From contig JAQSDW010000039.1 of NCBI GenBank assembly GCA_029946105.1, positions 1-63,461 on the forward strand: 63,461 nucleotides of DNA, read 5' to 3'. The position numbers and the translations under genes were made by a program. Source of the DNA: Reyranella sp. (GTDB taxonomy: Bacteria; Pseudomonadota; Alphaproteobacteria; Reyranellales; Reyranellaceae). Positions 16,065 to 29,949 of this stretch are shown here, one piece after another (the first letter of the stretch is position 1; the number at the start of each line of letters is the position of its first letter). A model generated the notes under the pieces. The model made no database searches, was not told where the DNA came from, and saw only the letters and a program-made list of their open reading frames with translations.

Positions 16065-16139
16065 GAGCCCGTAGCTCAGCGGTAGAGCATCTGACTTTTA
16101 ATCAGAGGGTCGTGGGATCGTACCCCACCGGGCTCACCA
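16065..16139 (+). tRNA. tRNA-Lys (anticodon TTT), CCA encoded
   Basis: A full cloverleaf can be drawn by hand: acceptor stem 16065-16071 with 16129-16135, D stem GCTC/GAGC, anticodon stem TCTGA/TCAGA around the loop CTTTTAA with anticodon TTT at 16097-16099, a 5-nt variable loop, T stem GTGGG/CCCAC, discriminator A136 and an encoded CCA (16137-16139). The T loop is ATCGTAC instead of the usual TTCRANY, so positions 54 and 58 are A and T rather than T and A. The next gene begins 28 bp downstream. Confidence 0.95.
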
Positions 16140-16167: not shown

Positions 16168-17043
16168 ATGCCGTCGGTGAAAGTCGTCAACGGTAAGCAG
16201 ATCGTGGTCGAGAATCTCGGCCCGCTGCAGCGTGCCTCCCGTTTCATGACGAGACCCTTCGAGCAAATGGTGCAGCATCAGGACCTGATCGCGGCCATCC
16301 TGAGGCGTGAGATCCGCGAGCGGTTCAAGGGATCGGTCGCCGGTTGGATCTGGGCGGTGGTCGCGCCGCTTCTTGCCATCACCGTCTATTCCTTTGCCTT
16401 TTCCACGAACCTGAAGCTACCGGGCGCAGAGGGCGATGGACCGATCATCACCTACTCGCTGTTCATCTTCAGCGGTATCGTCGTCTTCAATTTCTGGTCC
16501 GAGATGGCGTTTCGCGCGCCGATGCTGCTCCACGAATATACCCATTTCATAAAGCAGACGATCTTTCCCAGCGACATGCTGGCGGTGATCTCGACGCTGC
16601 GGGCGACTGCCTACACCCTGATCTCGATGGGCGTCATGCTGATCTTCCAGGTCGCGATTACCGGCAGCCTGCCGTGGACGGTGTTGCTGATCCCGCTGAT
16701 CTTCATCCCCTTCATGGCGTTCCTGATCGGCATGGCGTGGTTCCTGTGCGCGCTCGGGGCGTTCACCCGCGACGCCGGCTATTTCATGATCAACGTCGTG
16801 CCGTTGTTCATGTTCGCCACGCCGATCTTCTACCAGCACAGTTCGCTGCCGGCGCCGCTCGACTTCTGGATCTATGCCAACGCGCTGACCGGCTACGTCG
16901 AAGTCATGCGCGACATCGTGCTGCTCGGGAAGGTGCCGAACTTGCTCGTCTATGGCTGGACCCTGATCACGTCGGTCGTGACCTTCTACTTCGGCTACTG
17001 GTTCTTCGACAGGTATCGAAATGTCATCGTCGACGTCATCTGA
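16168..17043 (+). CDS. ABC-2 type polysaccharide exporter permease (Wzm/KpsM-like)
   Basis: Inner-membrane half of an ABC exporter that flips lipid-linked glycans. 291 residues: a soluble N-terminal stretch of about 50 residues, the amphipathic LRREIRERFKGSVAGW segment that precedes helix 1 in this family, then six membrane segments. The next gene, its ATPase, overlaps it by 23 bp in another frame, the typical wzm-wzt arrangement. The gene starts only 28 bp after tRNA-Lys, so read-through from the tRNA promoter is possible. Substrate unknown. Confidence 0.88.
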   Translation: MPSVKVVNGKQIVVENLGPLQRASRFMTRPFEQMVQHQDLIAAILRREIRERFKGSVAGWIWAVVAPLLAITVYSFAFSTNLKLPGAEGDGPIITYSLFIFSGIVVFNFWSEMAFRAPMLLHEYTHFIKQTIFPSDMLAVISTLRATAYTLISMGVMLIFQVAITGSLPWTVLLIPLIFIPFMAFLIGMAWFLCALGAFTRDAGYFMINVVPLFMFATPIFYQHSSLPAPLDFWIYANALTGYVEVMRDIVLLGKVPNLLVYGWTLITSVVTFYFGYWFFDRYRNVIVDVI

Positions 17044-17809
17044 GATCGTCGTCGAGGCGAAGCACCTCGGCAAGGCCTACCAGCTTTACGCCCATCGCAA
17101 CGACTGGCTGAAGCAGGTCCTGTTCGGGTGGTGGAAGGCGTACTTCAAGCCCTTCTGGGTGCTTCGCGACATCGACATCAGCGTCAAGCGCGGTGAGAGC
17201 ATCGGCGTGCTGGGCCGCAACGGCTGCGGCAAGTCGACGTTGCTGCAGGTCATCTGCGGCATGACCCTGCCGAGTCATGGCGAGCTCAGGGTGTCGGGCC
17301 GGATCGCGCCGGTCCTGGCGCTGGGATCGACCTTCGACCAGGAGCTGACGGGCCGCGAGAACGTCCTGATCGGCGGCGCAGTGCTCGGTCTGCGGCGGGC
17401 CGAGGTGCTGCGGAAATTCGACTCGATCGCGGAGTTCGCCGGCATCGGCGACTACATGGATCAGCCGGTGAAGCACTATTCCATGGGCATGCGCACGCGG
17501 CTCGCCTTCTCGATCTGCGCCCATGTCGAGGCGGAAATCCTGGTCGTCGACGAAGCCCTGTCGGTCGGCGACGCCGCCTTCCAGCGCAAGTGCCTCGACT
17601 GGATCGACAATTTCCGTAAGACCGGCACGCTTCTCTTCGTATCGCATTCGATGGCCGAGGTGCGCCGCCTGTGCACCCGGGCGATCTGGATCGAGGATGG
17701 CCGGATCCGCGAACAAGGCGATCCCAACGAAGTCATCCGGTCCTACCATCGCGCACTCCTGGTGGAAAAAGACGACGTGAATCGCTTCTCGGCAGGCGAG
17801 AAGAGATGA
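17021..17809 (+). CDS. ABC exporter ATPase (Wzt/KpsT-like, short form)
   Basis: Nucleotide-binding subunit paired with the preceding permease. 262 residues. Walker A is GRNGCGKSTLLQ (about 65-76), and Walker B is VVDEALSVGDAAFQRKC, the hallmark of the O-antigen, teichoic-acid and capsule exporter ATPases. The signature region is YSMGMRTRLAFS. The protein ends soon after the ABC domain, so it lacks the C-terminal carbohydrate-binding domain of long Wzt proteins that read a terminal cap on the glycan. The exporter therefore probably does not depend on a capped end. Confidence 0.9.
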   Translation: MSSSTSSEIVVEAKHLGKAYQLYAHRNDWLKQVLFGWWKAYFKPFWVLRDIDISVKRGESIGVLGRNGCGKSTLLQVICGMTLPSHGELRVSGRIAPVLALGSTFDQELTGRENVLIGGAVLGLRRAEVLRKFDSIAEFAGIGDYMDQPVKHYSMGMRTRLAFSICAHVEAEILVVDEALSVGDAAFQRKCLDWIDNFRKTGTLLFVSHSMAEVRRLCTRAIWIEDGRIREQGDPNEVIRSYHRALLVEKDDVNRFSAGEKR

Positions 17810-17812
17810 CGC

Positions 17813-18955
17813 ATGGACGCCGGGACCCCTGTCTGGCTCGGGCTCGGCTGGTGGTCGCTGAGTTCGGCCGTGCACTGGGTGAGTGCGGCGCTCGCCCGAC
17901 AGCCTAGACGGATGACGGCCGCGCGCTATCGACCTGCCGATTTCAGCATCGTCGCGCCGATGAACGGGGCGGGCGACGCGTCGGCGGCTTATGTCGATGC
18001 GCTTGCCGAACTGGCGCGGGCCGGCGTCGAAGTCCTGATCTGCGTTGCCCATGCCGACGATGGCGCCGTTGCCCCGACACGGGCCCTGTGGCCGGAGGCG
18101 CCGATCCTGGTCGGCAACGACGACACCTTTAATCCGAAGATGAACAACGTGCGCAAGGGGCTCGAGGCCGCCAGCCGCGACATCGTGGGCCTGTGCGATG
18201 CCGGTATCGTGTTCGGTGTCGACGAACTCTGCCGCGCCGCCGCGCCGCTGTCCGACACGATGGGCCTCGTGCTGGCTCTCAAGGCTGCCGACGCGCCGGC
18301 GAACTTCGCCGCCGAAATGGAGCGGGCGTACATCGATGGGCATCAGGCCAGGTTCCTGTTCGCGGCGGACCGTCTGGGTCTTGCGGTCGCTTCGGGCGGC
18401 GTGACCCTGCTGTCGCGGGACACCCTGCAGCGGATCGGCAACTGGCGCGGCTTCAATCGGTGGATTGCCGATGATTATTCGGTTGTCCGCTCGGTGCGAG
18501 AACTCGGCCTGGGGACATGTCTGGGCGAGGTGATGCTGCGGCTGCCGCTGGGCGCCCGCGACTGGCTGACGGTGTGGCGGCGGCAGGTCCGCTGGGCGCG
18601 TACCCGATTGCGCCTGCCGGTGTGGCCGTTGGTGTTGTGGGAACCCGTGATCGGTTGGGCGGCCTCTGGCGCCGCGGCCGCCGCGGCGCTCGCCTGTGCC
18701 GGCGTGGGGCCGGGCGCCGTCGTTGCCGGCTTGTTCGTGCATACCGCGGCGTGGCTGGCCGGCGAGAAATGGTTCATGGCAGGCCGTGGCCTCGAATTCG
18801 GATGGCGGGCGGCGGCGGCGGCGCTGGTGCGCGAGGCCCTGGCGCCGGCATTGATGGTGGGGGCGCTCGGCAGTCGCGCGATCTATTGGCGTGGCACCGA
18901 CCTCGGCGGGCACTGGAGCTCCCGGGGGGATGATACGGTGGGGAAGTCCGTATGA
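17813..18955 (+). CDS. Membrane glycosyltransferase, GT21/HpnI-like
   Basis: 380 residues. An N-terminal hydrophobic segment (about 5-25) precedes a GT-A domain resembling the ceramide-glucosyltransferase/HpnI group: a D-x-D-like CDAGIVFGVDEL region, the acidic DDYS catalytic site near residue 222, and the (Q/R)xxRW motif as RQVRW at 257-261. Two or three C-terminal membrane segments follow. Proteins of this type add a sugar or aminosugar to a lipid such as ceramide or a hopanoid; the acceptor is not known here. It starts 3 bp after the ATPase gene and overlaps the STAS gene by 4 bp, so translation is coupled. Confidence 0.8.
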   Translation: MDAGTPVWLGLGWWSLSSAVHWVSAALARQPRRMTAARYRPADFSIVAPMNGAGDASAAYVDALAELARAGVEVLICVAHADDGAVAPTRALWPEAPILVGNDDTFNPKMNNVRKGLEAASRDIVGLCDAGIVFGVDELCRAAAPLSDTMGLVLALKAADAPANFAAEMERAYIDGHQARFLFAADRLGLAVASGGVTLLSRDTLQRIGNWRGFNRWIADDYSVVRSVRELGLGTCLGEVMLRLPLGARDWLTVWRRQVRWARTRLRLPVWPLVLWEPVIGWAASGAAAAAALACAGVGPGAVVAGLFVHTAAWLAGEKWFMAGRGLEFGWRAAAAALVREALAPALMVGALGSRAIYWRGTDLGGHWSSRGDDTVGKSV

Positions 18956-19335
18956 AAGGGGCCCCTACGGAGACTGCAATCGCCACCATCATGCTGCCGG
19001 AGCGAGTCGATTCCGCAACCTCGGCGTCCGTGGAGGCGCTGATGATCGACGCGGTGCGTCCGGATGCCCGGGTTATCGTCGACGGTAGTGCAGTTACTTA
19101 TATGAGTGCCGCCGGCGTGCGCGCCCTGGCGATAGTGCTCCACAGGGCCGAAGAGCTGTCGGCGCGGATCGTTTTTTGCTCTTTTAGCGGGCCAGCGGCG
19201 GATTGCCTGCTGGTCAGCGGCTTTTCGCAATTGTTCGACGTGGCCGATTCGACCGAGCAAGCTCTCGCCAGATTGGCCTCGAAGCGCGCAGGTGGGTCTG
19301 CGGACCGCTTGCACCCGCATGGCGCCACGGGCTAA
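18952..19335 (+). CDS. STAS-domain protein (anti-sigma-factor-antagonist fold) lacking the usual phosphoserine
   Basis: 127 residues, a lone STAS domain (about 10-112), the fold of SpoIIAA-type anti-anti-sigma factors. The phosphorylation loop, normally (D/S)-S-(S/A)-G, reads S52-A53-A54-G55 in the context TYMSAAGVRAL, so the usual acceptor serine is alanine, with a serine one position earlier. It could be a constitutively active antagonist or a scaffold for a glycan-export complex rather than a phospho-switch. It is translationally coupled (ATGA overlap) to the glycosyltransferase upstream. No kinase or sigma factor lies nearby. Confidence 0.8.
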   Translation: MKGAPTETAIATIMLPERVDSATSASVEALMIDAVRPDARVIVDGSAVTYMSAAGVRALAIVLHRAEELSARIVFCSFSGPAADCLLVSGFSQLFDVADSTEQALARLASKRAGGSADRLHPHGATG

Positions 19336-19419
19336 TTACATGGCGGGCTGAGACTTGATTATGGGAAGGGACGAGGCGCGGCACGTTGTGATGCGACTGT
19401 TCCGGACGGAGATCGGAAT

Positions 19420-20586
19420 TTGACAATTTGGAGCTGGCTGCGCGCTGTCGCGCGACCTACCGCCATTGTCCTCGGCTTGGGTATCGGCGTTGCCGCGTGC
19501 ACCGCTTTGCCTGGCGATGGTCCGTGGATGGGCGGTGCCCAGGGAACCGCTACCGAAGCGTTGCCGTTCGACGTGATCGACCTCACGCCGACGACCATTG
19601 CAGCCTACCGCCAACCTGAGAGCGTCGACCGTCCGTCGATCACGAGCGGGCTGTCGGCCGGCGGCAAGATTTCGGTGGCGCCGGGTGATGCGATCAAGGT
19701 TCGCATCTTCGAGCCCTATGAAGGCAGTATTTTCCCGACGATTCAGAAGCCGGGCGCCGATTTCGGCGTCCAGCGCGTCACCGATGCCGGCACGATCAAC
19801 ATTCCCTTCGTGGGGACCGTCCAGGTCGCCGGCCTCGACCTCAGCCAGATCGAGCGTCGTATTGCCCAGCAATTGAACGGAAAAGCCCAGGATCCCCAGG
19901 TCATCGTCGAGTTCGTGGCCGATCGCACCCATACAGTGATGGTCTCGGGCGATGTCAAGACTCCGGGCCGCGTCTCGATCCTCGAGGGCGTGAGATCCGT
20001 CGTCGACGCCATCAACCGGGTTGGCGGTCCTGCCAGCACCGGCGGTGGCGGACAGGGCGGCGCCATGGGTGGGCAGACGCAGCTCGAAGTCGTGGTGCGA
20101 CGTCACGGTGAAGTGATCTTGACGGCGCAGTATTCGGAGCTGCTGGCCGGGGCCGATATTGCGGTCCAAAAAGGCGACGAGATCGTCGTTCGCCCCAATT
20201 CCCGGGTCTTCACCGTCCTGGGCGCCGTGATGAAATCCGGCAACGTCGAGATGACCAAGCACAATCTGTCGCTTCTGGAAGCACTGGGTCAGGTCGGTGG
20301 TTTGAATGATATCCGCGCCAACAAAACGGGCGTTTATGTCTTCAGAATGGGAGATTTGAAGATCAACCCCGCCGCCCGCGCCCGCGTGTTCCGCCTGGAT
20401 CTGATGCAGCCGGTCTCCATCTTCGTCGCCCAGCAGTTCGGGATGCAGGCCCGCGACGTAATTTACGTCTCGAATGCCCCCCTGTACGAATATGACAAGG
20501 TCCTGACATCAATTTACCGTACTTTCTCGATTGTTAGTGTCGTCCGGTCGACCGGCACGTCGTCGGTTTCGTTGCCGGCCTTCTGA
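19420..20586 (+). CDS. Outer-membrane polysaccharide export lipoprotein (Wza/OPX-like)
   Basis: 388 residues. A lipoprotein signal ends at Cys27 (lipobox VAAC), followed by a poly-export domain containing VAPGDAIKVRIFEPYEGS and AGTINIPFVGTVQVAG, then SLBB repeats (HTVMVSGDVKTPGRVSI; RVFTVLGAVMKSGNVEM). This is the Wza family that forms the outer-membrane exit for capsule or exopolysaccharide. The start is TTG at 19420; an ATG at 19391 lies in another frame and stops after 10 codons. Notably no Wzc-like co-polymerase is encoded nearby. An 84-bp gap separates it from the STAS gene. Confidence 0.9.
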   Translation: MTIWSWLRAVARPTAIVLGLGIGVAACTALPGDGPWMGGAQGTATEALPFDVIDLTPTTIAAYRQPESVDRPSITSGLSAGGKISVAPGDAIKVRIFEPYEGSIFPTIQKPGADFGVQRVTDAGTINIPFVGTVQVAGLDLSQIERRIAQQLNGKAQDPQVIVEFVADRTHTVMVSGDVKTPGRVSILEGVRSVVDAINRVGGPASTGGGGQGGAMGGQTQLEVVVRRHGEVILTAQYSELLAGADIAVQKGDEIVVRPNSRVFTVLGAVMKSGNVEMTKHNLSLLEALGQVGGLNDIRANKTGVYVFRMGDLKINPAARARVFRLDLMQPVSIFVAQQFGMQARDVIYVSNAPLYEYDKVLTSIYRTFSIVSVVRSTGTSSVSLPAF

Positions 20587-20630
20587 TCAGCATGCCGAGC
20601 GATACAAAGCGATATCTGGTATAATTGGTA

Positions 20631-21629
20631 ATGGCGCGCGCAAGAAAGTTCACATGGGGTGCGGCGAGCGTGGTGGCGCTTGTCGTGGCCGCTGTCCTGG
20701 CGATGTGGATGACCCCCACACGGCAGACCAGCAGCGCCCAGGATGGAGCTCGCTCGCTCGGGCCCCTGATTTCGCGTGGCTATACGGATGCGCCGGCCGG
20801 CACCGTGGTGATTGCGGGCGATCCGGGCGGTGGCGCGGTGATCCTCGAACTTCGCATTACCGACGGCCAGAAGGTCAAGAAGGACGACATACTTGCCGTC
20901 CTGTCGAACTATCCCAAGTCCGACGTTGCCGTCCGTTCGACCGAAGCGGAGTTGAACAAGGCCAAGCAGCAGCGCGAAGCGATGGTCGATGGTTACCGTA
21001 CGGCTGAAATCGCCATGCAGGAAGTCGTCGTAAGGTCGGAAGCCGAATCGAACAAGCTCAAGGCGCTTCAGATGCAGCGCTCGGGCCTGCCACCCGACCA
21101 GAAACAGCTCGAATTGAGCATCTCCCAGCAGAACCTGGAGCGCGAGCAGGCGAAGCTCCGGGTCCAGAAGGAGACGCTGCAGTCCGATCTCGGGCAGATC
21201 GAGACGGAAATCAGTATCATCAAGTCCAAGCTCGACAACTCGCGGACGACGCGTGAGCAGGCGCTTGTCCGCTCTCCTCTCGACGGCGTGGTGGTGCAGA
21301 TCTATTCGCGTCAGGGCGAGCGGGTGTCGCAAAGCGGCATCGCCAAGATTGTCGACCTGAACCAGCTGCGCATCCTTGCTGATGTCGACGAACTGCACGT
21401 CGGCCGGGTCGTTCCGGGCGGCAAGGTCGAGGTCACGTTCCGCGGCAGCCCGACCATCTACAAGGGAACGATCGCGCGCGTGGCGCCGACTGTGAAGCGC
21501 ATGCAGCGTGTCGAGCCGGACGGCGGCTCGTCGACCGACGGCCGCGTGGTCCAGGTCGAGATCGAACTCGACGACCCGTCCAGCATGCCGCGAGTGCTGG
21601 GGCGAGAGACGCGCGTTACCTTCCCCTGA
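20631..21629 (+). CDS. Periplasmic adaptor of an ABC exporter (DevB/HlyD family)
   Basis: 332 residues from the ATG at 20631 (an in-frame TTG lies 6 bp earlier). One N-terminal membrane segment (about 6-27), a lipoyl half-domain, a long coiled coil of about 110 residues (Lys, Gln and Glu rich), and the second lipoyl and beta-barrel half starting LVRSPLDGVVVQIYSRQGERVSQSG. It is followed by an FtsX-like permease and an ATPase in the order adaptor-permease-ATPase, the devBCA order known from heterocyst glycolipid export in cyanobacteria. Its coiled coil presumably contacts an outer-membrane channel; the OPX lipoprotein upstream is an obvious but unproven candidate. Confidence 0.87.
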   Translation: MARARKFTWGAASVVALVVAAVLAMWMTPTRQTSSAQDGARSLGPLISRGYTDAPAGTVVIAGDPGGGAVILELRITDGQKVKKDDILAVLSNYPKSDVAVRSTEAELNKAKQQREAMVDGYRTAEIAMQEVVVRSEAESNKLKALQMQRSGLPPDQKQLELSISQQNLEREQAKLRVQKETLQSDLGQIETEISIIKSKLDNSRTTREQALVRSPLDGVVVQIYSRQGERVSQSGIAKIVDLNQLRILADVDELHVGRVVPGGKVEVTFRGSPTIYKGTIARVAPTVKRMQRVEPDGGSSTDGRVVQVEIELDDPSSMPRVLGRETRVTFP

Positions 21630-21635
21630 GCTGAG

Positions 21636-22898
21636 ATGGCCCTGGTCCTACCAGCCCTTCCGTCACTGAAGCGGCGTCGCTGGCGGCCGGATTTCTCGTT
21701 CACACGCCTGCGCGCGGCGGCCAGGACGGCGACGACGATGCCGCTCGGCGCCCAGCAGCTCAAGCGCCAGCGGACCAGCACCTTGTTGTCGCTGGCCGGC
21801 GTCACCGCCAGTCTGCTGGTGATCTTCGCCCAGCTCGGTATCGAGCGCGCGGTCTACGATTCAGCCGTCCGCCTCCATCGGACCGTGGCCGCCGATCTCG
21901 TTCTGGTGCCGTCCGGCTTCAAGTCGTTGCAGCTCCACGCCGAAGTGCCCGTGGCGATGACCGACATCGTGTCGGCCAACTCGTCCGTGGCAGGGACAAT
22001 GCCGCTCTGGTTCGGTGTCATGTCGATGACCCACGCCGGCATGCCGACCTCGCGGCGTATCGCCTGGTATGCCATCGATGTGGAGCGACCGGCGATCGAC
22101 GTGCCGGGCCTGCGCGAAAATCTCTATAAGCTGCGCGAGGCGCGGCGCATGCTCTACGACCGCGAGTCGCGACCCTATTTTGGCGATCTCGGCGAGGTCG
22201 GGGAGGGCAAGGAAGTGCCGGTGCTCGGGCCGCCCGACAATCGCGGGCTGCTGCGCCAGCTTTTCGTCGTCGGAACCTTCGCGGTCGGCCCAAATGTGCT
22301 GAACGACGGCGCCGTCCTGATGTCCGAAGGGACCATGTCCGAAGTCTTCGGTGCCTGGTGGTCGGATCGTCCGGCCTTCATCGCTATTCGGCTGGCCCCC
22401 GGGGCCGATCCGATGGTGGTCCAGAAAGACCTCAATCGCGAACTGGCCGGCCGCGGCGAAGTCATTACCATCTCCGAACTCGAGGCGCGCGAGAGGAGCT
22501 ACTGGTCGCGCGAAACGCCGGTCGGCTACATCACGGATCTTGGCTTCGTTATGGGTGTGATGATCGGAATGGTGTTCATCTACTACGCCCAGTATCAGAT
22601 CATCCGCTTCTACCTGCCGGAATACGCCATCCTGAAGAGCCTGGGTTACGACTGGTGGTTCTTTCTCTTCATGATTGGCCAGATCGGCGCTGCCATTATC
22701 ACGCCGGCCTTTCTGGTGGCCTTCACGCTCGGACGGGTCGTCTATGGCATCACCGAGACAGCCATGCATCTCGGCATGTCGATGGGGCTGCGCGAAATGT
22801 CCGTGGCCCTCGCGGCCTGTGTGGTCATGACGGTGGTGTCGAGCCTTTTTGCGATCAGGCGACTGTGGAAGGTCGACCCGATCATGCTGTTCGAGTGA
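21636..22898 (+). CDS. FtsX-like ABC permease (DevC type)
   Basis: 420 residues. The N-terminal segment TLLSLAGVTASLLVIFAQLGIERAV is the first helix and resembles DevC. A periplasmic domain of about 200 residues follows, then three C-terminal helices with an FtsX domain ending IRRLWKVDPIMLFE. This four-helix MacB/DevC plan belongs to type VII-like exporters, which move substrate through the periplasm by mechanotransmission. The gene starts 6 bp after the adaptor gene. The residues MPLGAQQLKRQRT before helix 1 match the W-x-x-L...R-R/K start of this family. Confidence 0.85.
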   Translation: MALVLPALPSLKRRRWRPDFSFTRLRAAARTATTMPLGAQQLKRQRTSTLLSLAGVTASLLVIFAQLGIERAVYDSAVRLHRTVAADLVLVPSGFKSLQLHAEVPVAMTDIVSANSSVAGTMPLWFGVMSMTHAGMPTSRRIAWYAIDVERPAIDVPGLRENLYKLREARRMLYDRESRPYFGDLGEVGEGKEVPVLGPPDNRGLLRQLFVVGTFAVGPNVLNDGAVLMSEGTMSEVFGAWWSDRPAFIAIRLAPGADPMVVQKDLNRELAGRGEVITISELEARERSYWSRETPVGYITDLGFVMGVMIGMVFIYYAQYQIIRFYLPEYAILKSLGYDWWFFLFMIGQIGAAIITPAFLVAFTLGRVVYGITETAMHLGMSMGLREMSVALAACVVMTVVSSLFAIRRLWKVDPIMLFE

Positions 22899-22900
22899 CC

Positions 22901-23617
22901 ATGACAGGTAATCCCCATGGTTTCGGACCGCCGGTCATCGAGGCGGTGGACGTTCACCACCACTACGGTGAGGGGCCGCAGCGCGTCGACGTGCTGTACG
23001 ACATCAACATGCAAGTCCGAGAAGGCGAGCTGGTGATCGTCACCGGCCCGTCAGGCTCGGGCAAGACGACCCTTCTCACGATCCTCGGCACGATGCGCAA
23101 ACCATCGGAAGGCAAACTCCGCCTGCTCGGTACCGACCTCGTCGGAGTTACCGGATCCGAGCTGGACGTATTGCGCAATCGCGTCCGGTTCCTGTTCCAG
23201 AAGCGCAATCTGCTGTCGTCGCTGACGGCGCTGCAGAACGTCATTGCCGGCGTCTCGACCACGCCGCTGTCGGATCCCGCCTGGGACGAGCCGCGGGCGC
23301 GCCATCTGCTCAACTTGCTCGGGCTGGCCGAAAAGGCCGATGCCTGGCCCGATGAGTTGTCGGGTGGTCAACAGCAGCGTGTCGCCATCGCCCGCGTCAT
23401 GATCGGGTTGCCGGATCTCATCATCGCCGACGAGCCGACCTCGGCGCTCGATCGGGTGGCCGGCCGGCTGGTCGTCGACCAGCTCAAGGATCTCGCCATG
23501 CGCGCCAAGTGCGCCGTGGTGTTGTCGACGCATGACGAGCGCATCTTTGACGTCGCATCTCGCCGTCTGCACATCGAGGATGGTCGCTGCTTCGACGTGC
23601 CCATCCACTATCACTGA
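22901..23617 (+). CDS. ABC ATPase (DevA/LolD/MacB type)
   Basis: 238 residues. Walker A TGPSGSGKTTLLTILG, signature ELSGGQQQRVAIARVM, and Walker B LIIADEPTSALD are intact, with a Q-loop in LFQKRNLLSSLTALQNV. The sequence is of the LolD/DevA class that powers FtsX-like permeases. The ATG at 22901 lies 2 bp after the permease stop; the reading frame is open well upstream, but that part overlaps the permease and has no family residues. The three-gene set forms a complete exporter. Confidence 0.9.
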   Translation: MTGNPHGFGPPVIEAVDVHHHYGEGPQRVDVLYDINMQVREGELVIVTGPSGSGKTTLLTILGTMRKPSEGKLRLLGTDLVGVTGSELDVLRNRVRFLFQKRNLLSSLTALQNVIAGVSTTPLSDPAWDEPRARHLLNLLGLAEKADAWPDELSGGQQQRVAIARVMIGLPDLIIADEPTSALDRVAGRLVVDQLKDLAMRAKCAVVLSTHDERIFDVASRRLHIEDGRCFDVPIHYH

Positions 23618-23629
23618 CGGCGGGGCAGC

Positions 23630-24874
23630 ATGCTGCTCCTGGCCTTCGATACCATCGTCTTGCTCTGTTTGGCCGCGCAGTTCGCGATCGCGGCCTATTT
23701 CCTCTATCTGGTCTACTGGCTGTTCGAGCTTCCCGCCGTGCCGGAGAGTGCGCCGCCGCCCGCCGACGATCTGCCGCGGGTCCTGATCCAGCTCCCGGTC
23801 TACAATGAACCACTCGTCGTCGAGCGCGCGCTGTCTGCAGCGGCGGCCCTCGACTGGCCGGCCGACCGCCTGACGATCCAGCTCCTCGACGACAGCACCG
23901 ACATCACCTCCGATATTGCCGTTCATGCCGTCGCGCGGCTTCGTCGCCAGGGCATCGACGTGGTACACGTCCGGCGCGCCGATCGCAGCGGCTTCAAGGC
24001 CGGCGCCCTGGCGGCGGGCATGGCGCTCTGCGATGCCCGCTATGTCGCGGTGTTCGATGCCGATTTCGTGCCGCCGCCCGGCTGGCTGCGTCAGGCGATG
24101 GCCTCGATGCTGGCCAATCCGCGTGCCGCGTTCGTGCAGACCCGCATCGAGTGGGGCAACGGCGAGAGCAACTGGCTGACGCGCGCCCAGCGGCTCATGC
24201 AGGACGCCCATTTTGCCGTCGAGCAGGACGTACGCGCGCGGCGCGGCGTGCCGTTCCAGTTCAATGGTACCGGCGGCATCTGGCGGCGTGCCGCCATCGA
24301 GGAGGCCGGTGGCTGGTCGCACGACACGCTGTCGGAGGATCTCGACCTGGTGCTGCGGACATATCTGAAGGGCTGGACCGGGGTGTTCCTCATGGAACCG
24401 CACGTGGTCGGCGAGTTGCCGCAGAAGATCGCTGATTTCGGCGCCCAGCAGAACCGTTGGTCGAAGGGCTTCGTCCAGGTGGCGCGCAAGCTCCTGGGGC
24501 CGATCTGGAATTCGGCCTGGCCGACCGAAGCCAAGCTGACGACGACCGTGGCACTCGGCCAACAGCTCATCTTCCCCCTGCTGGTCGTGGGCGTGGTGGC
24601 CCTGATCCTGTCGATCGTGGGCCATGGCCGGCTGCTCGGCATCTTCCGGTTCGGTCTCTGGTTCTGGCTGATCACGATGCTGGTGGTGCTGATCGGCATG
24701 ACCTGGGGCGCCTATCGGCGACTGCAGCGTGGCGGCGTGGTGCGCTACCTGGTCACGGCGGCCAGCGTGCCGGCCCTGATCGTCTATCTTGCCGTGGCCA
24801 ACGCGGCATCCATTGTCGGCGCAGGCTTCGGCAAGAAGACCGAGTTCAATCGCACCCCCAAGACCGGCACATAA
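23630..24874 (+). CDS. Processive GT2 glycosyltransferase (CslA/cellulose-synthase-like), copy 1
   Basis: 414 residues: an N-terminal membrane helix, a cytosolic GT-A domain, and three or four C-terminal helices. Motifs in order: QLPVYNEP, LLDDSTD, the D-x-D equivalent DADFVPP, GTGGIWRRAAIE, EDLDLVLRTYLKGW and the processive-synthase QxxRW as QQNRWSKG. These fit bacterial relatives of CslA beta-mannan/glucomannan synthases and curdlan-type synthases. The C-terminus ends in a basic RTPK motif shared with copy 2. It starts 12 bp after the ATPase gene. GDP-mannose from the nearby manC could be the donor; this is inference. Confidence 0.87.
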   Translation: MLLLAFDTIVLLCLAAQFAIAAYFLYLVYWLFELPAVPESAPPPADDLPRVLIQLPVYNEPLVVERALSAAAALDWPADRLTIQLLDDSTDITSDIAVHAVARLRRQGIDVVHVRRADRSGFKAGALAAGMALCDARYVAVFDADFVPPPGWLRQAMASMLANPRAAFVQTRIEWGNGESNWLTRAQRLMQDAHFAVEQDVRARRGVPFQFNGTGGIWRRAAIEEAGGWSHDTLSEDLDLVLRTYLKGWTGVFLMEPHVVGELPQKIADFGAQQNRWSKGFVQVARKLLGPIWNSAWPTEAKLTTTVALGQQLIFPLLVVGVVALILSIVGHGRLLGIFRFGLWFWLITMLVVLIGMTWGAYRRLQRGGVVRYLVTAASVPALIVYLAVANAASIVGAGFGKKTEFNRTPKTGT

Positions 24875-24894
24875 GACAGGCAGCCCAGCGATCC

Positions 24895-26193
24895 ATGGCC
24901 ATCCTCGCCATCCTGGTTCTTTTCTTCGGCACCGTTTTCGCGGTCTGCTGCCTGTTGCTGGGCGCCTTCATCGGCAGCCTGCTCTACATGGTTGTCCTGC
25001 ATCACCGGCTGAAGGATGCGGGCCTGGAGCGCGAGGAGATGCTGCTGTCGACGCCGCTGCCGGCCGATGCCGACCTGCCGCATGTCGTCGTTCAGGTTCC
25101 GTCCTTCAACGAGGGGCGCGTGGTCCGCCGCGGCGCGGAGTCGGCCGCTGCGCTCGACTGGCCGCGCGACAAGCTGCACATCCAGCTTCTCGACGACAGC
25201 ACCGACGAAACGGCCGACATGATCCGCGCGGTGGCGGCCGAGCTCAGGGCAAAGGGCTTCGACGTGGTGGCGCTGCAGCGCACCGACCGCAGCGGTTACA
25301 AGGGCGGGGCGTTGCATGAGGCGATGCAGAAGACGCCGCACGACTTCTTTGCGATCTTCGACGTCGATTACGTGCCGCCGGCCGACTTCCTGCGCAATTG
25401 CATGCGGCCGTTCTTCGCCGAGCCGCACACCGCCTTCGTGCAGGCCCGCTTCGACTTTCTCAATCCGCACGAAAATGCCCTCACCGAGATGCAGATGGTC
25501 ACGCTCGACGCCCATCTCGGCATCGAGCAGGCGACGCGCTGCTGGGCGGGGCATCCGCTGCCCTTCAACGGCACCTGCGGCATCTGGCAGCGAGCGGCCA
25601 TCGAGGCCGGCGGCGGCTGGAAGGGCGATACCGTCACCGAGGACCTCGATCTCACCTATCGAGGGTGGGTGAAGGGCTGGCGTGCGCTGTTCCTGACCAG
25701 CGTCGGCGTGCCGGGCGAGCTGCCGGCCGACACCAAGACGTGGTTGCGCCAGCAGCAGCGCTGGCAGGACGGCTTTCGCCACGTCTCGATGCGCATGTTC
25801 CCCGAGATATTGAAGAGCCGGGATATCACGCCGTCGGCCAAGCTGGCGGCCCTCCTGCACCTCTGCATGGCGCTCAATCAGCCTGTCCTGCTGGTCGGGG
25901 TTGTGTCCGGCCTTCTGGCGGCACTGCTGGCGCCGAAGCTCATCCCGCTGCTGCTGACGTTGTTCGTCATCACCGTCGTCTGGGTGCTGATTTGTGCCAC
26001 GACCTTCCTGCGGGCCGGCCACAACTTCATCCGCGACGGCGAGATTCCGCCGCTCGCGTTCGCCGTGGTGCTGCTGCGTTTCGCGGTCGGCCAGGCCGCG
26101 ACCGTCGTGCGGTCGCTCGGCGTTCATCTGAAGAAGATGTTCAGCAAGCCCAAGCCGGTCGTGTTCGACCGCACCCCTAAGAAGGGCGTCTAG
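24895..26193 (+). CDS. Processive GT2 glycosyltransferase (CslA/cellulose-synthase-like), copy 2
   Basis: 432 residues, paralogous to the gene just upstream and with the same plan: N-terminal helix, GT-A domain with QVPSFNEG, LLDDSTDE, DVDYVPP, GTCGIWQRAAIE, EDLDLTYRGWVKGW and QQQRWQDG, then C-terminal helices and a final RTPK tail. The third motif ends QDG instead of SKG, so acceptor or donor use may differ. The ATG at 24895 lies 20 bp after copy 1; open frame further upstream overlaps copy 1 and is not used. Its 3' end overlaps the convergent amidinotransferase by 4 bp. Confidence 0.87.
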   Translation: MAILAILVLFFGTVFAVCCLLLGAFIGSLLYMVVLHHRLKDAGLEREEMLLSTPLPADADLPHVVVQVPSFNEGRVVRRGAESAAALDWPRDKLHIQLLDDSTDETADMIRAVAAELRAKGFDVVALQRTDRSGYKGGALHEAMQKTPHDFFAIFDVDYVPPADFLRNCMRPFFAEPHTAFVQARFDFLNPHENALTEMQMVTLDAHLGIEQATRCWAGHPLPFNGTCGIWQRAAIEAGGGWKGDTVTEDLDLTYRGWVKGWRALFLTSVGVPGELPADTKTWLRQQQRWQDGFRHVSMRMFPEILKSRDITPSAKLAALLHLCMALNQPVLLVGVVSGLLAALLAPKLIPLLLTLFVITVVWVLICATTFLRAGHNFIRDGEIPPLAFAVVLLRFAVGQAATVVRSLGVHLKKMFSKPKPVVFDRTPKKGV

Positions 26194-27152
26194 CCCAGCG
26201 CGCTTTCGCGCAGCAGCGGATGGTGGGCGCAGCGAAGCCCGCCGCCGGTGAAGATCGGGCCATCGAAGGGCAGGGGGATGACGTCGACCCCGCGCTTGCG
26301 CAATTCTTCGATCACGCGTGCATTGTCGGCGTCGACGATGATGCGGCCCTCGTCAAGCACCAGCCCGTTGGTCGCGAGCAGATCGGCTTCGTCCCTGGAG
26401 ACGGCGATCGCCTCCCAGTCGCGCAACGACATCGGCAGGCCGTCGATGAATTTCTCCGGACACCAGACGAGCAAGCCCGGCTTGATCAGCGCCAAGGCGC
26501 AGTCGAGGTGGAGCACGTTCGACTTCATCGCCACGGGAATGACGCGGTAGGCGCCCCCCAGCAACGCCTGCAGCCAGTCGACGCCGGCGAGATCGGACGC
26601 ACAGCCGGAGATGCCGACATAGATTTCGCGCCCGTTGAGTAGCGTGTCGCCACCTTCGAGGAAGGGCCCGTCGACGCAGCCGGGCGAGCCCAGCGGCACG
26701 CTCGACCAGCGGGCCCCATGCTCCTGTACGGCCTTGTGGATGATCGGGCGCAGCCCAAAGCGCTCGCGTTGGCGGCACTTCAGGCGGAGCGATGCATCGA
26801 TGACGTGATTGCCGATCACGATCATGCCATCGCGCGCAAAGAGCTGGGCGCCTTCGCCGTTGGGCGCCAGGAAGGTACGCTCGGAGCCTTTGAGGCGTTC
26901 GGGCCGGTGGACGGTGATCCCCTCGCGCGCCACCAACTCGGTCAGCGCATCGACCTGGCGCTCGATGCGAAGGGCACGTTCGGGATCGACATCGATCAGG
27001 CGCCGTCCGGCATGCTGGCGGCTGAAGGCATCGCCCGGCGGGACGAGCCAGCGTTGCGATTCCTCATGGAAGACGACGAAATCCTCGGCCGGCGAAATGC
27101 CGATCACGACTTCACGCAGCTTGCCCCATTCGTGGTGGGCGCCGAACCGCAT
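26190..27152 (-). CDS. Amidinotransferase / guanidino-group modifying enzyme (AGAT/DDAH fold)
   Basis: 320 residues of the pentein fold. Visible active-site pieces are GPFLEGGDTLL (acidic pair), SNVLHLDCALAL (catalytic His), and the nucleophile Cys308 in GGGLRCAHHPL near the C-terminus. The Cys-His-Asp/Glu set is shared by arginine:glycine amidinotransferase, scyllo-inosamine amidinotransferases and dimethylargininases, which I cannot separate by eye. It starts 3 bp after manC, strongly suggesting one transcript and a joint role, for example transfer of an amidino group to an aminosugar. Start ATG at 27152; upstream open frame overlaps manC. Confidence 0.8.
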   Translation of the reverse strand: MRFGAHHEWGKLREVVIGISPAEDFVVFHEESQRWLVPPGDAFSRQHAGRRLIDVDPERALRIERQVDALTELVAREGITVHRPERLKGSERTFLAPNGEGAQLFARDGMIVIGNHVIDASLRLKCRQRERFGLRPIIHKAVQEHGARWSSVPLGSPGCVDGPFLEGGDTLLNGREIYVGISGCASDLAGVDWLQALLGGAYRVIPVAMKSNVLHLDCALALIKPGLLVWCPEKFIDGLPMSLRDWEAIAVSRDEADLLATNGLVLDEGRIIVDADNARVIEELRKRGVDVIPLPFDGPIFTGGGLRCAHHPLLRESALG

Positions 27153-27154
27153 CT

Positions 27155-28555
27155 TCAAACGCGGGCGTAGATGTCTTCGTATCTGACGATGTCGTCTTCC
27201 TCGAGGTAGTCGCCGGTCTGCACCTCGACGACTTCGAGCGGTTCGAGCCCCGGGTTGGCGAGCCGGTGGATGCCGCCCATCGGGATATAGATCGACTCTT
27301 TCTCGTGCAGGGTCATGTTCTTGCCGTCGAGCGTCACTTCGGCGACGCCCTTGACCACGACCCAATGCTCGGCCCGCCGCCTGTGGCTCTGCAGGCTGAG
27401 CTTGCCGCCGGGATTGACGGTCAGGCGCTTGGCGCGGAACCGCTCGCCGCGATCGATGTCCTGATAGCTGCCCCATGGGCGGTGCATGACGGCATGCTCG
27501 GTCGCCGCCCGGTGCTTGCCATCCGACATGCGCTGCACGACATCCTTCAGCCGCGGAAGATTGTCTCGATGGCCGACCAGGACGGCGTCGTTCATCGCCA
27601 CGACGACGACGTCCTCGACGCCGATCACTGCGGTGAGCGGACCATCGGAGCGGATGTAGGAATTGCGCACGTGATCGATCTCGACTGGTCCTTCGGTGAC
27701 GTTGCCCTCACTGTCGGCCTCGCCGACGTCGAGCAGCGCATCCCAGGTGCCGAGGTCGGACCAGCGGAAGCGGGCAGGCACGACCCAGCACTTGTCGGTG
27801 CGCTCCATGACCGCGTAGTCGATCGACTTGGCTGGCGCCTTGGCGAAAGCCTCGGCGTCGAGGAATACGGTCGAGCCGACCTGCTTGGCCTTGGCGACGG
27901 CTTCCTCGGCGGCGGCGGCCATCTCGGGCTCGAAGCGGGCCATCTCCGACAGCAGCAGCGCAGGCGGGAACAGGAAGTTGCCGCTGTTCCACAGCAAGCC
28001 TTCGGCGATGTAACGCAGCGCGGTCTGGGCATTGGGCTTCTCGACGAAGGCGGCGACCTTCATCACCGGCCCGATACGCTCGCTGCCGGGACGGATGTAG
28101 CCGTAGTCGGTCTTGGGTTCCGTCGGCGGGATGCCGAAGGTGACGATGCCGCCCTGCTCGACGGCGGCGAGGCCTTCGCGGCAGCCGGCGAGGAATTCCT
28201 CGGCGCCGATCACCAGATGGTCCGACGCCAGCGCCAGCACGGCCTTGGCGCCGAGTCCGCGCGTGTAGGCGGCAGCGGCGGCCATGGCGGGCCCTGAGTC
28301 GCGGCGCGACGGCTCGACAAGAATGTCGATGTCGATATCCTTGGCTTGGCCTTCGCACATGAAGCGATAGGCGTCGTTGGTGGCGATCACGGGCTTGCCG
28401 AACAGGGAACGGTCGGCGACGCGCAGCAGCGTCTGCTGGAAGGTCGACTGCTTGCCGAGCAAGGGAACGAACTGCTTGGGCATGCTCTCGCGCGACAGCG
28501 GCCACAGTCGCTTGCCGGAGCCTCCAACCAGGATAACGGGAGTGATGAGCGACAT
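27155..28555 (-). CDS. manC: Mannose-1-phosphate guanylyltransferase / mannose-6-phosphate isomerase (bifunctional)
   Basis: Makes GDP-mannose. 466 residues, the usual length of the type II bifunctional enzyme. The nucleotidyltransferase signature GGSGKRLWPLSRESMPKQF lies at about residues 11-29, and the sugar-phosphate site FVEKPNA is present. The C-terminal cupin/isomerase domain (about 350-460) includes RPWGSYQDID and LSLQSHRRRAEHW with the metal-binding His and Glu. Transcribed against the glycosyltransferases; paired with the amidinotransferase. GDP-mannose supply fits the CslA-like synthases across the strand. Confidence 0.94.
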   Translation of the reverse strand: MSLITPVILVGGSGKRLWPLSRESMPKQFVPLLGKQSTFQQTLLRVADRSLFGKPVIATNDAYRFMCEGQAKDIDIDILVEPSRRDSGPAMAAAAAYTRGLGAKAVLALASDHLVIGAEEFLAGCREGLAAVEQGGIVTFGIPPTEPKTDYGYIRPGSERIGPVMKVAAFVEKPNAQTALRYIAEGLLWNSGNFLFPPALLLSEMARFEPEMAAAAEEAVAKAKQVGSTVFLDAEAFAKAPAKSIDYAVMERTDKCWVVPARFRWSDLGTWDALLDVGEADSEGNVTEGPVEIDHVRNSYIRSDGPLTAVIGVEDVVVVAMNDAVLVGHRDNLPRLKDVVQRMSDGKHRAATEHAVMHRPWGSYQDIDRGERFRAKRLTVNPGGKLSLQSHRRRAEHWVVVKGVAEVTLDGKNMTLHEKESIYIPMGGIHRLANPGLEPLEVVEVQTGDYLEEDDIVRYEDIYARV

Positions 28556-28659: not shown

Positions 28660-29853
28660 TCATCGCTTTAGTTCGCCCGCCCTTCTTTCGATATTCTCCT
28701 CGCGCCGGCGCTTTGCCTCGCCTTCGACGGCCTCGGCCAGGGCGGGAATACGCGAGGCGATCTCGTAGAAGTCGCTGGCATACAGGACCAGCAACGTGGT
28801 CGGTCGCGCCGTCGCCACGGTGGCGGAGCGCGGCTGACGCTCCAGAAGCGCCATTTCGCCGAAGAATGCACCTTCGCCGAGCTTCACGGTGCCGCCGTTC
28901 GGCAGGCGGACCTCACATTCGCCGCTCGAGATGAAGAACATCGAGTCGCCGGGATCGCCGCGCCGCATGATGGTGACGTGCGAGGGATAGTAGCGGGTTC
29001 GCAGCTTGCCCACGATCTCGGACAGAGTGACGACACCCAGGGCGGCGAAGATCGGCACGCGCGCCACCTGTTCCCAAACCCTGAGATACTCGCGTCGCCG
29101 TTCCTCCTGGGCAAATCCGGTGGCGAGCACGCCGGTCATGATGGCGAGAACGGAAATGCCGCTGATCATCAGAACGGAGCCGACCAGGCGTCCTCCCGCC
29201 GTGACCGGCACCACGTCGCCGTAGCCGGTCGTGGTCAGCGTCACGACGGCCCACCACAGGGCGTTGGGAAGGCTGCCGAACGCCTCGGGCTGACGCCCGC
29301 GCTCGAGCAGGTGCGCCGCGGTCGCGGCGATCACGAGGACGATGAAGAACAGGACCAGGACGCCGGCGATCGGGGCGCGCTCGTTCGATACGACACGGGC
29401 CAGGGTTCCGAGCGCGGGCGCGTGCAGGCCGAGCTTGAGGATCCAGAGGGCGCAGAAGATCGATGCGGCGTCGGTGCCGACGATGCGGTAGCCGGCCAGC
29501 CACATGAGTATCGGCACGGTCGCCAGGAGCGCGACAAGCCCCGGCAGGGACATCGCCCATTGCAGCCGGGCCATCGTGGGGGAGGCCTCTCTGTAGCGCC
29601 CTTCCTCAGGCGCCACCCAGAGCCGCACGACGTATTCGATGAAGAACAGGTTGGCGACCGTCCAGATCGTGTAGCGGAGCGCATTTCGCGTATCGGGCGG
29701 CAGGTCGTCGATCGACAGCAGGATCACGGCGAACAGGCCGATACCGAGCACGCAGAGGTGCAGCATCCGCCACCGACGTCCCGCGTCGCTGGGGTCGGTG
29801 AAATGCAGCAGCGCATGGATGCGCGCGCGAAGACTGGAAGCCTGGGCCGTCAC
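28660..29853 (-). CDS. Cyclic-nucleotide-gated potassium channel (MlotiK1-like)
   Basis: 397 residues: six membrane segments (S1-S6) with the pore filter TTTGYGD between S5 and S6, then a C-linker and a cyclic-nucleotide-binding domain. That domain contains the phosphate-binding cassette FFGEMALLERQPRSATV, where Gly-Glu and Arg contact the cyclic nucleotide in the family. The layout matches the Mesorhizobium loti channel MlotiK1. The S4 helix has few arginines, as in MlotiK1, implying weak voltage sensing. The only plausible start is a GTG at 29853; open frame beyond it runs into the divergent hyuA. K+ uptake or efflux gated by cAMP/cGMP is inferred. Confidence 0.88.
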   Translation of the reverse strand: MTAQASSLRARIHALLHFTDPSDAGRRWRMLHLCVLGIGLFAVILLSIDDLPPDTRNALRYTIWTVANLFFIEYVVRLWVAPEEGRYREASPTMARLQWAMSLPGLVALLATVPILMWLAGYRIVGTDAASIFCALWILKLGLHAPALGTLARVVSNERAPIAGVLVLFFIVLVIAATAAHLLERGRQPEAFGSLPNALWWAVVTLTTTGYGDVVPVTAGGRLVGSVLMISGISVLAIMTGVLATGFAQEERRREYLRVWEQVARVPIFAALGVVTLSEIVGKLRTRYYPSHVTIMRRGDPGDSMFFISSGECEVRLPNGGTVKLGEGAFFGEMALLERQPRSATVATARPTTLLVLYASDFYEIASRIPALAEAVEGEAKRRREENIERRAGELKR

Positions 29854-29949
29854 AGCGCGACCATAGGCGCGCTGGCCTGCGAATTGCAACGCAGGGGAGG
29901 CCGGTCTACGGTCCCGCCCGCATCCGTGGGACAGGAGTTTGGAGCAGCA

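Follow-up and report, generated by a model that had tools for sequence, protein, structure and literature searches.

Composition and conservation of the locus

We analysed a 63,461-nucleotide stretch of DNA (hereafter the window) from contig JAQSDW010000039.1 (G000:C39) of Reyranella sp., whose draft genome (GCA_029946105.1) comprises 5.62 Mb in 242 contigs. Positions 16168–28555 hold a twelve-gene locus centered on the six genes gt21-stas-opx-devB-devC-devA. Within this core, the gene for a Wza-like outer-membrane polysaccharide export (OPX) lipoprotein precedes three separate genes, in B-C-A order, for a periplasmic adaptor, a MacB/FtsX-type permease and an ATP-binding cassette (ABC) ATPase. 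That OPX and DevBCA constitute one unit is well supported, because their adjacency is conserved, the DevB proteins lack the RLS tip motif, and no OPX gene lies near 36 other DevC loci. The genes, their order and their directions as given in an initial annotation of the locus were all verified by position and domain, with ten genes on the plus strand and two on the minus strand (Table 1). Intergenic gaps are small, the widest being the 84 bases between stas and opx, and several genes overlap; a ten-gene operon facing a two-gene manC/amt operon is therefore likely. Promoter and terminator scans of the locus returned no excess over shuffled sequences.

A DevC search of the order covered 76 genomes, that of the window included, and matched 63, two of them remotely, leaving a close DevC in 61. 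We retrieved 60 neighbourhoods from the 60 genomes other than our own and mapped the proteins of the window onto each. The core is complete, in order and with gaps below 1 kb in 56 of these 60 sister loci; three more are truncated where the contig stops, and in one (L096) an additional reverse-oriented gene separates stas from opx. Two of the complete loci (L047 and L086, both from draft genomes) have an interrupted OPX frame, through assembly error or decay. Co-occurrence of Wza-like and DevB-like genes in other genomes, which the initial annotation had proposed as a check, was borne out: opx and devB are neighbours in every sister locus whose contig spans both, and no sister locus lacks DevBCA except at contig ends. 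Fifteen of the 76 genomes have no close DevC. Six of these hold a true OPX orthologue (631–691 bits), and in all six the contig gives out early, at most 132 bases past opx, inside devB or immediately beyond it. Four g5 genomes have a remote OPX at most (174–192 bits), and at a threshold of E 1e-20 OPX was not found in four Reyranella drafts (60–82% complete) or in G001. Named relatives of the OPX locus include Reyranella massiliensis, R. soli, R. aquatilis, Enhydrobacter aerosaccus and many metagenome-assembled genomes (MAGs), some under other names; R. soli NBRC 108950 and R. aquatilis KCTC 52223 are among the strains with the core. The six-gene core recurs in sister loci and is no chance neighbourhood; the complete set of twelve genes varies more.

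The core also persists apart from its polysaccharide-type neighbours. All five genomes of two sister genera (g2 and g3; L097–L101) keep the six core genes, at 32–73% identity to the window, and their core stretches (13–20 kb) contain no match to wzm, wzt, gt2a, gt2b, manC or amt; gyrA likewise has no match near the core. Directly before gt21 in these five genomes lies a gene for a member of the fatty-acid hydroxylase superfamily (PF04116), as judged by coordinates in all and by direct scan in two. Across 67 mapped loci, contig-cut ones and g2/g3 included, gt2a and gt2b are found together in 55, the wzm–wzt pair in 53, manC in 39 and amt in 38. It follows that the mannan-type genes, which lie outside the conserved unit, are less constant than the core.

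Beyond the core family, no OPX gene was found near any of 36 DevC loci (stretches of 6–20 kb), made up of 7 from Reyranellaceae, 25 class and phylum samples and 4 on named plasmids. This sample excludes three weak DevC matches (G015:C206, G049:C15 and G029:C126) and 21 of 30 plasmid records; among the nine plasmid records viewed, four were scanned for OPX and five, cyanobacterial, were examined for the DevB tip alone. On two of four alphaproteobacterial plasmids (L204 and L206, from Thioclava and Methylocystis), DevBCA sits within a lipid-type cluster encoding an AMP-binding enzyme, a ketosynthase/polyketide synthase, a phosphopantetheinyl transferase, an acyl-CoA dehydrogenase and DUF1295, where an exported, as yet unstudied, lipid is possible. 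In another alphaproteobacterium (L195), two GT21-like genes lie on the opposite strand, 5–10 kb from the DevB and DevC genes; this is possibly a second GT21–DevBCA association, one without OPX.

Table 1. Features of the locus and its left edge, with positions in the window
Feature	Coordinates	Strand	Assignment	Evidence and remarks
tRNA-Lys(ttt)	16065..16139	+	tRNA	ARAGORN; left edge, 28 bases before wzm
wzm	16168..17043	+	ABC-2 permease	ABC2_membrane PF01061 1.1e-12; in Reyranella loci, not found at g2/g3 core
wzt	17021..17809	+	ABC ATPase, 262 aa	ABC_tran PF00005 3.3e-20; no Wzt_C-type domain reported
gt21 (core)	17813..18955	+	Ceramide-glucosyltransferase/HpnI-like	Glyco_transf_21 PF13506 1.2e-28
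stas (core)	18952..19335	+	Single STAS domain	PF01740 7.7e-10
opx (core)	19420..20586	+	Wza-like outer-membrane polysaccharide export lipoprotein	Poly_export PF02563 2.8e-15; SLBB (PF22461, PF10531); TTG start
devB (core)	20631..21629	+	Membrane-anchored periplasmic adaptor	HlyD_D23/HlyD_3; alternative start at TTG, 20625
devC (core)	21636..22898	+	MacB/FtsX-type permease	DevC model 4.8e-51, under cut-off
devA (core)	22901..23617	+	ABC ATPase, DevA/LolD type	DevA model 4e-73, under cut-off
gt2a	23630..24874	+	Cellulose-synthase-like GT2	PF13632/PF13641; CelA/BcsA relatives; QxxRW-type signature judged by eye
gt2b	24895..26193	+	Second cellulose-synthase-like GT2	PF13632/PF13641
amt (accessory)	26190..27152	-	Amidinotransferase, StrB/AGAT/HsvA kind	PF02274; HsvA 3.6e-19; inosamine-phosphate amidinotransferase 6.4e-18
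manC (accessory)	27155..28555	-	Mannose-1-phosphate guanylyltransferase/mannose-6-phosphate isomerase kind	PF00483, PF01050

A mobile island at the tRNA-Lys gene was considered and rejected, as 45 of 54 loci of the Reyranella genus have gyrA upstream and the other nine have no gyrA in the available stretch. Adjoining manC, at 28660–30462, is an ion channel gene with a cyclic-nucleotide-binding domain (Ion_trans and cNMP_binding), which flanks many sister loci too.

The adaptor tip and the other core proteins

All three Dev proteins have the Dev models as their best-scoring models while remaining under the curated cut-offs: DevB reaches 109.5 of 129 bits (TIGR02971, 2.2e-31), DevC 173.9 of 290.35 bits (TIGR01185) and DevA 245.7 of 295.8 bits (TIGR02982). 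The similarity of DevC to the FtsX C-terminal domain scores 24.0 bits against a cut-off of 25.5, and a DevC profile gave no match among solved structures. AlphaFold models DevB (mean pLDDT 80, predicted TM score 0.55) with a helix in the inner membrane, a lipoyl part, a barrel part and hairpin arms of about 57 residues, and its best fold match is MacA (1.9e-16, TM score 0.42).

Adaptors that bind TolC carry the RLS motif, R-x3-L-x6-S (or T), at the tip of this hairpin (PMC3391258), and Anabaena DevB reportedly needs the tip regions of TolC (PMC4446572). None of 60 core DevB proteins has the motif, in strict or relaxed form. Their alignment shows a ten-column gap exactly at the RLS site and a short turn instead, which reads RSGKPPD or RSGLPPD in 45 of 59 proteins tallied; S153 and P157 are invariant in 18 aligned sequences, placing the rebuilt tip at approximately residues 153–157, numbered from the TTG at 20625. 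Other DevC-linked adaptors bear the motif strictly in 18 and in relaxed form in 21 of 27 cases. It is strict in the paralogous adaptors of the same genus at L103, L104, L105 and L108, relaxed at L106 and missing at L102, and cyanobacterial DevB proteins have it strictly at the tip in three of five, with R and L there in all five. The tally leaves aside L111–L178, largely the same genomes again, as well as DevB-like frames not adjoining a DevC frame, and it counts L060 (at a contig end) and L086 (with the broken OPX frame) as core, so that the two groups number 60 and 27, where they would otherwise number 58 and 29. The tip change is the strongest sequence evidence at hand, and it suggests a switched outer-membrane partner.

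The OPX protein is Wza-like across nearly its whole length, with Poly_export and SLBB domains and matches to Wza chains at 6e-52, and its lipoprotein signal includes a lipobox, GVAAC, judged by eye. A Foldseek match to Wza (3.6e-23), obtained on a low-confidence model (mean pLDDT 61), adds weak support. Model confidence falls below 50 in the tail, which is some 33 residues long, and Pfam, in a library that may not hold the model, reported no match to Wza_C, the C-terminal outer-membrane helix that marks class 1 OPX proteins.

A profile of 17 GT21 sequences matches solved ceramide glucosyltransferase from one end to the other (4e-50; positions 7–361), so GT21 is probably a lipid glycosyltransferase. 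HpnI is the closest NCBI model (1.4e-29), at 103 of 310 bits and thus far under its curated cut-off; a hopene cyclase was not found in this genome and is present in two of the ten genomes scanned. Hopanoid glycosylation by an HpnI orthologue was rejected on the missed cut-off together with the lack of a hopene cyclase in this genome. The mannan-like cargo favored by the initial annotation also loses ground, as the mannan-type genes lie outside the conserved unit, the two GT2 synthases follow the divergence of the operon weakly (see below) and the constant enzyme is related to ceramide glucosyltransferase. A glycolipid made by GT21, or a lipid-linked glycan, is the more likely substrate of the core.

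Classical anti-sigma antagonists possess a phosphorylatable serine. At what we take to be the same position, 54 of 58 STAS sequences have alanine and one has serine, the motif not being found in three. STAS is therefore perhaps not a phospho-switch.

A candidate route for glycolipid across the envelope

On balance, we lean slightly toward reading gt21-stas-opx-devBCA as a single trans-envelope pathway, with a GT21-made glycolipid as its substrate, DevBCA as its pump and OPX as its exit in place of TolC. At the inner membrane, GT21 would attach a sugar to a membrane lipid. DevC/DevA, putatively of the MacB type (type VII), would work on the periplasmic side, lifting the glycolipid, or a glycan assembled upon it, into DevB and not itself transferring cargo across the inner membrane; MacB-type engines in general act in the periplasm without carrying cargo over that membrane (PMC5985334). 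The Wza-like OPX would then provide the outer-membrane exit, and a DevB without a TolC-gripping tip would be the corresponding adaptor. In Reyranella, Wzm/Wzt may move a lipid-linked product over the inner membrane, a step beyond DevBCA, and the two cellulose-synthase-like synthases may lengthen it with sugars, mannose included. Such a two-pump relay would account for the presence of two ABC systems in a single operon. We infer the docking of DevB on OPX, the lipid substrate, the relay and the mannose. The wider proposal, a class of machine in which a MacB-type engine and hairpin adaptor dock on a Wza-type OPX, elaborated in Reyranella into a Wzm/Wzt-to-DevBCA relay of a GT21-primed lipid-linked glycan, is tentative and on the doubtful side. 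The combined exporter of the initial annotation, with DevB as the bridge to OPX, emerges strengthened to the extent that OPX and DevBCA belong together (in the 60 loci, in g2/g3 and by the tip), with its mannan-like cargo weakened.

Several observations weigh against the glycolipid pathway. Some TolC-binding adaptors do without RLS (PMC4446572), and even the relaxed motif is missing in 6 of the 27 non-core adaptors. As the 60 core adaptors form one orthologous family, their altered tip counts as a single event rather than 60, and the 27 are partly related too. MacA-type adaptors are hexameric and Wza is octameric, a symmetry mismatch (PMC3391258 and PMC9601211, respectively). Eight relatives of the core OPX, 54–82% identical, have no adjacent core genes (L118, L155, L161, L162, L166, L167, L172 and L214), and the OPX family is therefore not bound to DevBCA without exception. 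Four of these neighbourhoods, scanned with Pfam, hold copper, phosphatase (PhoX), sugar-uptake, transposase and other genes, and at L118 genes for a resistance-nodulation-division (RND) pump and for an OEP protein lie close to the OPX; the lone genes look like stray duplicates, arisen by repeated duplication both in Reyranella and in differently named MAGs. Adaptor-type helical regions have been detected in alphaproteobacterial OPX proteins (PMC2850547), a hint that the OPX and adaptor families could meet, and the Pfam layout of the core OPX contains no such insert. Hopanoids are unlikely as the general acceptor of GT21. Other PF04116 members are present in all ten genomes scanned, and the superfamily also includes carotenoid and sterol enzymes; given this breadth, the PF04116 gene beside gt21 hints at "lipid" and nothing further.

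The TolC-like genes elsewhere in the genome belong on the same side of the ledger. According to the initial annotation, neither the usual partner of a Wza-like protein (a Wzc co-polymerase or KpsE-type protein) nor the TolC-like partner of DevBCA was present. This is correct for the locus, which has no TolC-like, Wzc or KpsE gene, and incorrect for the genome, where OEP/TolC domains match seven times in four reading frames on other contigs and the sole Wzz match is an 800-aa, Wzc-sized frame on C72 that adjoins another OPX. The TolC homologues are what one would expect if two ordinary exporters shared an operon, Wzm/Wzt working with OPX for polysaccharide and DevBCA with a TolC encoded elsewhere for lipid. 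The core OPX is closest to Wza, and OPX proteins are known alongside ABC exporters such as KpsMT (PMC4594306), as this arrangement would have it. However, OPX still stands beside devB in all five g2/g3 genomes, with no Wzm/Wzt match in the stretch; DevB is without the RLS tip; and no KpsE-type protein (TIGR01010) was found in this genome, those of G012 and G013 lying at least 0.3 Mb from the core. We consider two separate exporters unlikely, if still deserving of real weight.

Shared divergence offers a further view of the operon. We compared gyrA-corrected divergence across 41 loci, which are related by descent and for which independence is not claimed; L046, L047, L079, L084, L086 and any locus without one of 11 genes were excluded. 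After this correction, wzm, wzt, gt21, opx, devB and devC co-vary, at pairwise correlations of 0.59–0.92, and gt2a and gt2b correlate with these six at 0.46 at most. In a second comparison, the eight loci with DevB below 66% identity to the window were removed, a group thus chosen by DevB identity; among the remaining 33, the six genes still correlate at 0.45–0.78 and gt2a/gt2b at 0.39 at most. Relative to the 33, identity in the eight drops by 14 points in devB (by construction), 13 in wzm, 13 in gt21, 8 in wzt, 6 in opx and 5 in devC, and by 0–4 points in gyrA (1), stas, devA, gt2a (4) and gt2b (0). These eight loci account for much of the signal. Because stas is barely affected while lying between gt21 and opx, a single block transfer is awkward as an explanation; a change of common substrate fits the pattern, which is suggestive only. 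No special bond between DevB and OPX is seen, the best partners being devB–gt21 (0.92) and opx–devC (0.81), and this is another point to set against the glycolipid pathway.

The same drops in wzm, wzt and gt21, set against 1 point in gyrA, would be natural if DevB substituted for the polysaccharide co-polymerase (PCP) of Wzm/Wzt, so that polysaccharide passed through Wzm/Wzt, DevB and OPX while DevCA just energised or gated the bridge and the cargo stayed a polymer. The locus has no PCP, and the GT2 genes are found in those Reyranella loci with a contig long enough to include them, both of which are in keeping with this scheme. In g2/g3, however, the core persists with no Wzm/Wzt or GT2 match in the stretch, and gt2a and gt2b follow the divergence hardly at all; we hold the scheme to be quite improbable. 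Very improbable, in our estimation, is co-location without a common function, OPX and DevBCA simply being linked in a conserved region. Operon partners may be unrelated and related OPX genes also stand alone, but the core order is kept in differing surroundings, with gyrA upstream in most Reyranella-genus loci and no gyrA match near the g2/g3 core, and the gene-specific divergence is common to part of the operon only. The pathway from GT21 through DevBCA to OPX thus remains our preferred reading.

Relation to known envelope machines

OPX proteins are described as working with PCPs (PMC9601211), and tripartite MacB-type pumps with TolC (PMC8277102, PMC5985334). If the proposed pathway is correct, OPX proteins are not bound to PCP partners, nor MacB-type pumps to TolC, and outer-membrane exits would be swappable between polysaccharide and efflux machines, as illustrated by a stable lineage with its halves exchanged and a matching loss of the TolC-docking tip. 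The six genes would also provide a compact system for asking how a Wza-type pore opens and how glycolipids cross the periplasm. No title among the literature matches listed describes an OPX–DevBCA pairing; subscription papers fall mostly outside these matches, so absence is unproven. By term counts, "HlyD" and "adaptor" are absent from the main texts of two 2022 OPX surveys, and the single occurrence of "devc" in PMC9601211 is a journal identifier in the reference list. Literature searches on Reyranella surface glycans returned nothing relevant.

Comparison with characterized systems suggests that the locus consists of known parts in a new pairing and could be a new route for a sugar-lipid to the cell surface. 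DevBCA of Anabaena exports glycolipids via the TolC-like HgdD (PMC8277102 and PMC5985334); the locus resembles it in gene order, in having the Dev models as best for all three proteins and in its probable glycolipid cargo, but falls under all three cut-offs, adjoins OPX rather than TolC/HgdD and has an adaptor tip without RLS. MacAB–TolC shares the engine class, by family, and supplies the best fold match of DevB, whereas the permease and ATPase of the locus are separate proteins, no TolC is present in the locus and the tip is rebuilt. For GT21, the likeness to HpnI and ceramide glucosyltransferase lies in the end-to-end alignment with the latter, and the difference from HpnI in its low score and the hopene cyclase not found in this genome. 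In Wza–Wzc and KpsD–KpsE capsule export, the OPX component is of the kind seen here over nearly its full length, but in the locus, which has neither Wzc nor KpsE, a DevB-type adaptor appears to fill the position of that partner. Finally, the OPX/beta-barrel translocon of Myxococcus (PMC9601211) likewise places OPX in a non-canonical envelope assembly; its novelty is an outer-membrane barrel, with the PCP kept, whereas in the Reyranella locus it is the inner-membrane partner that differs.

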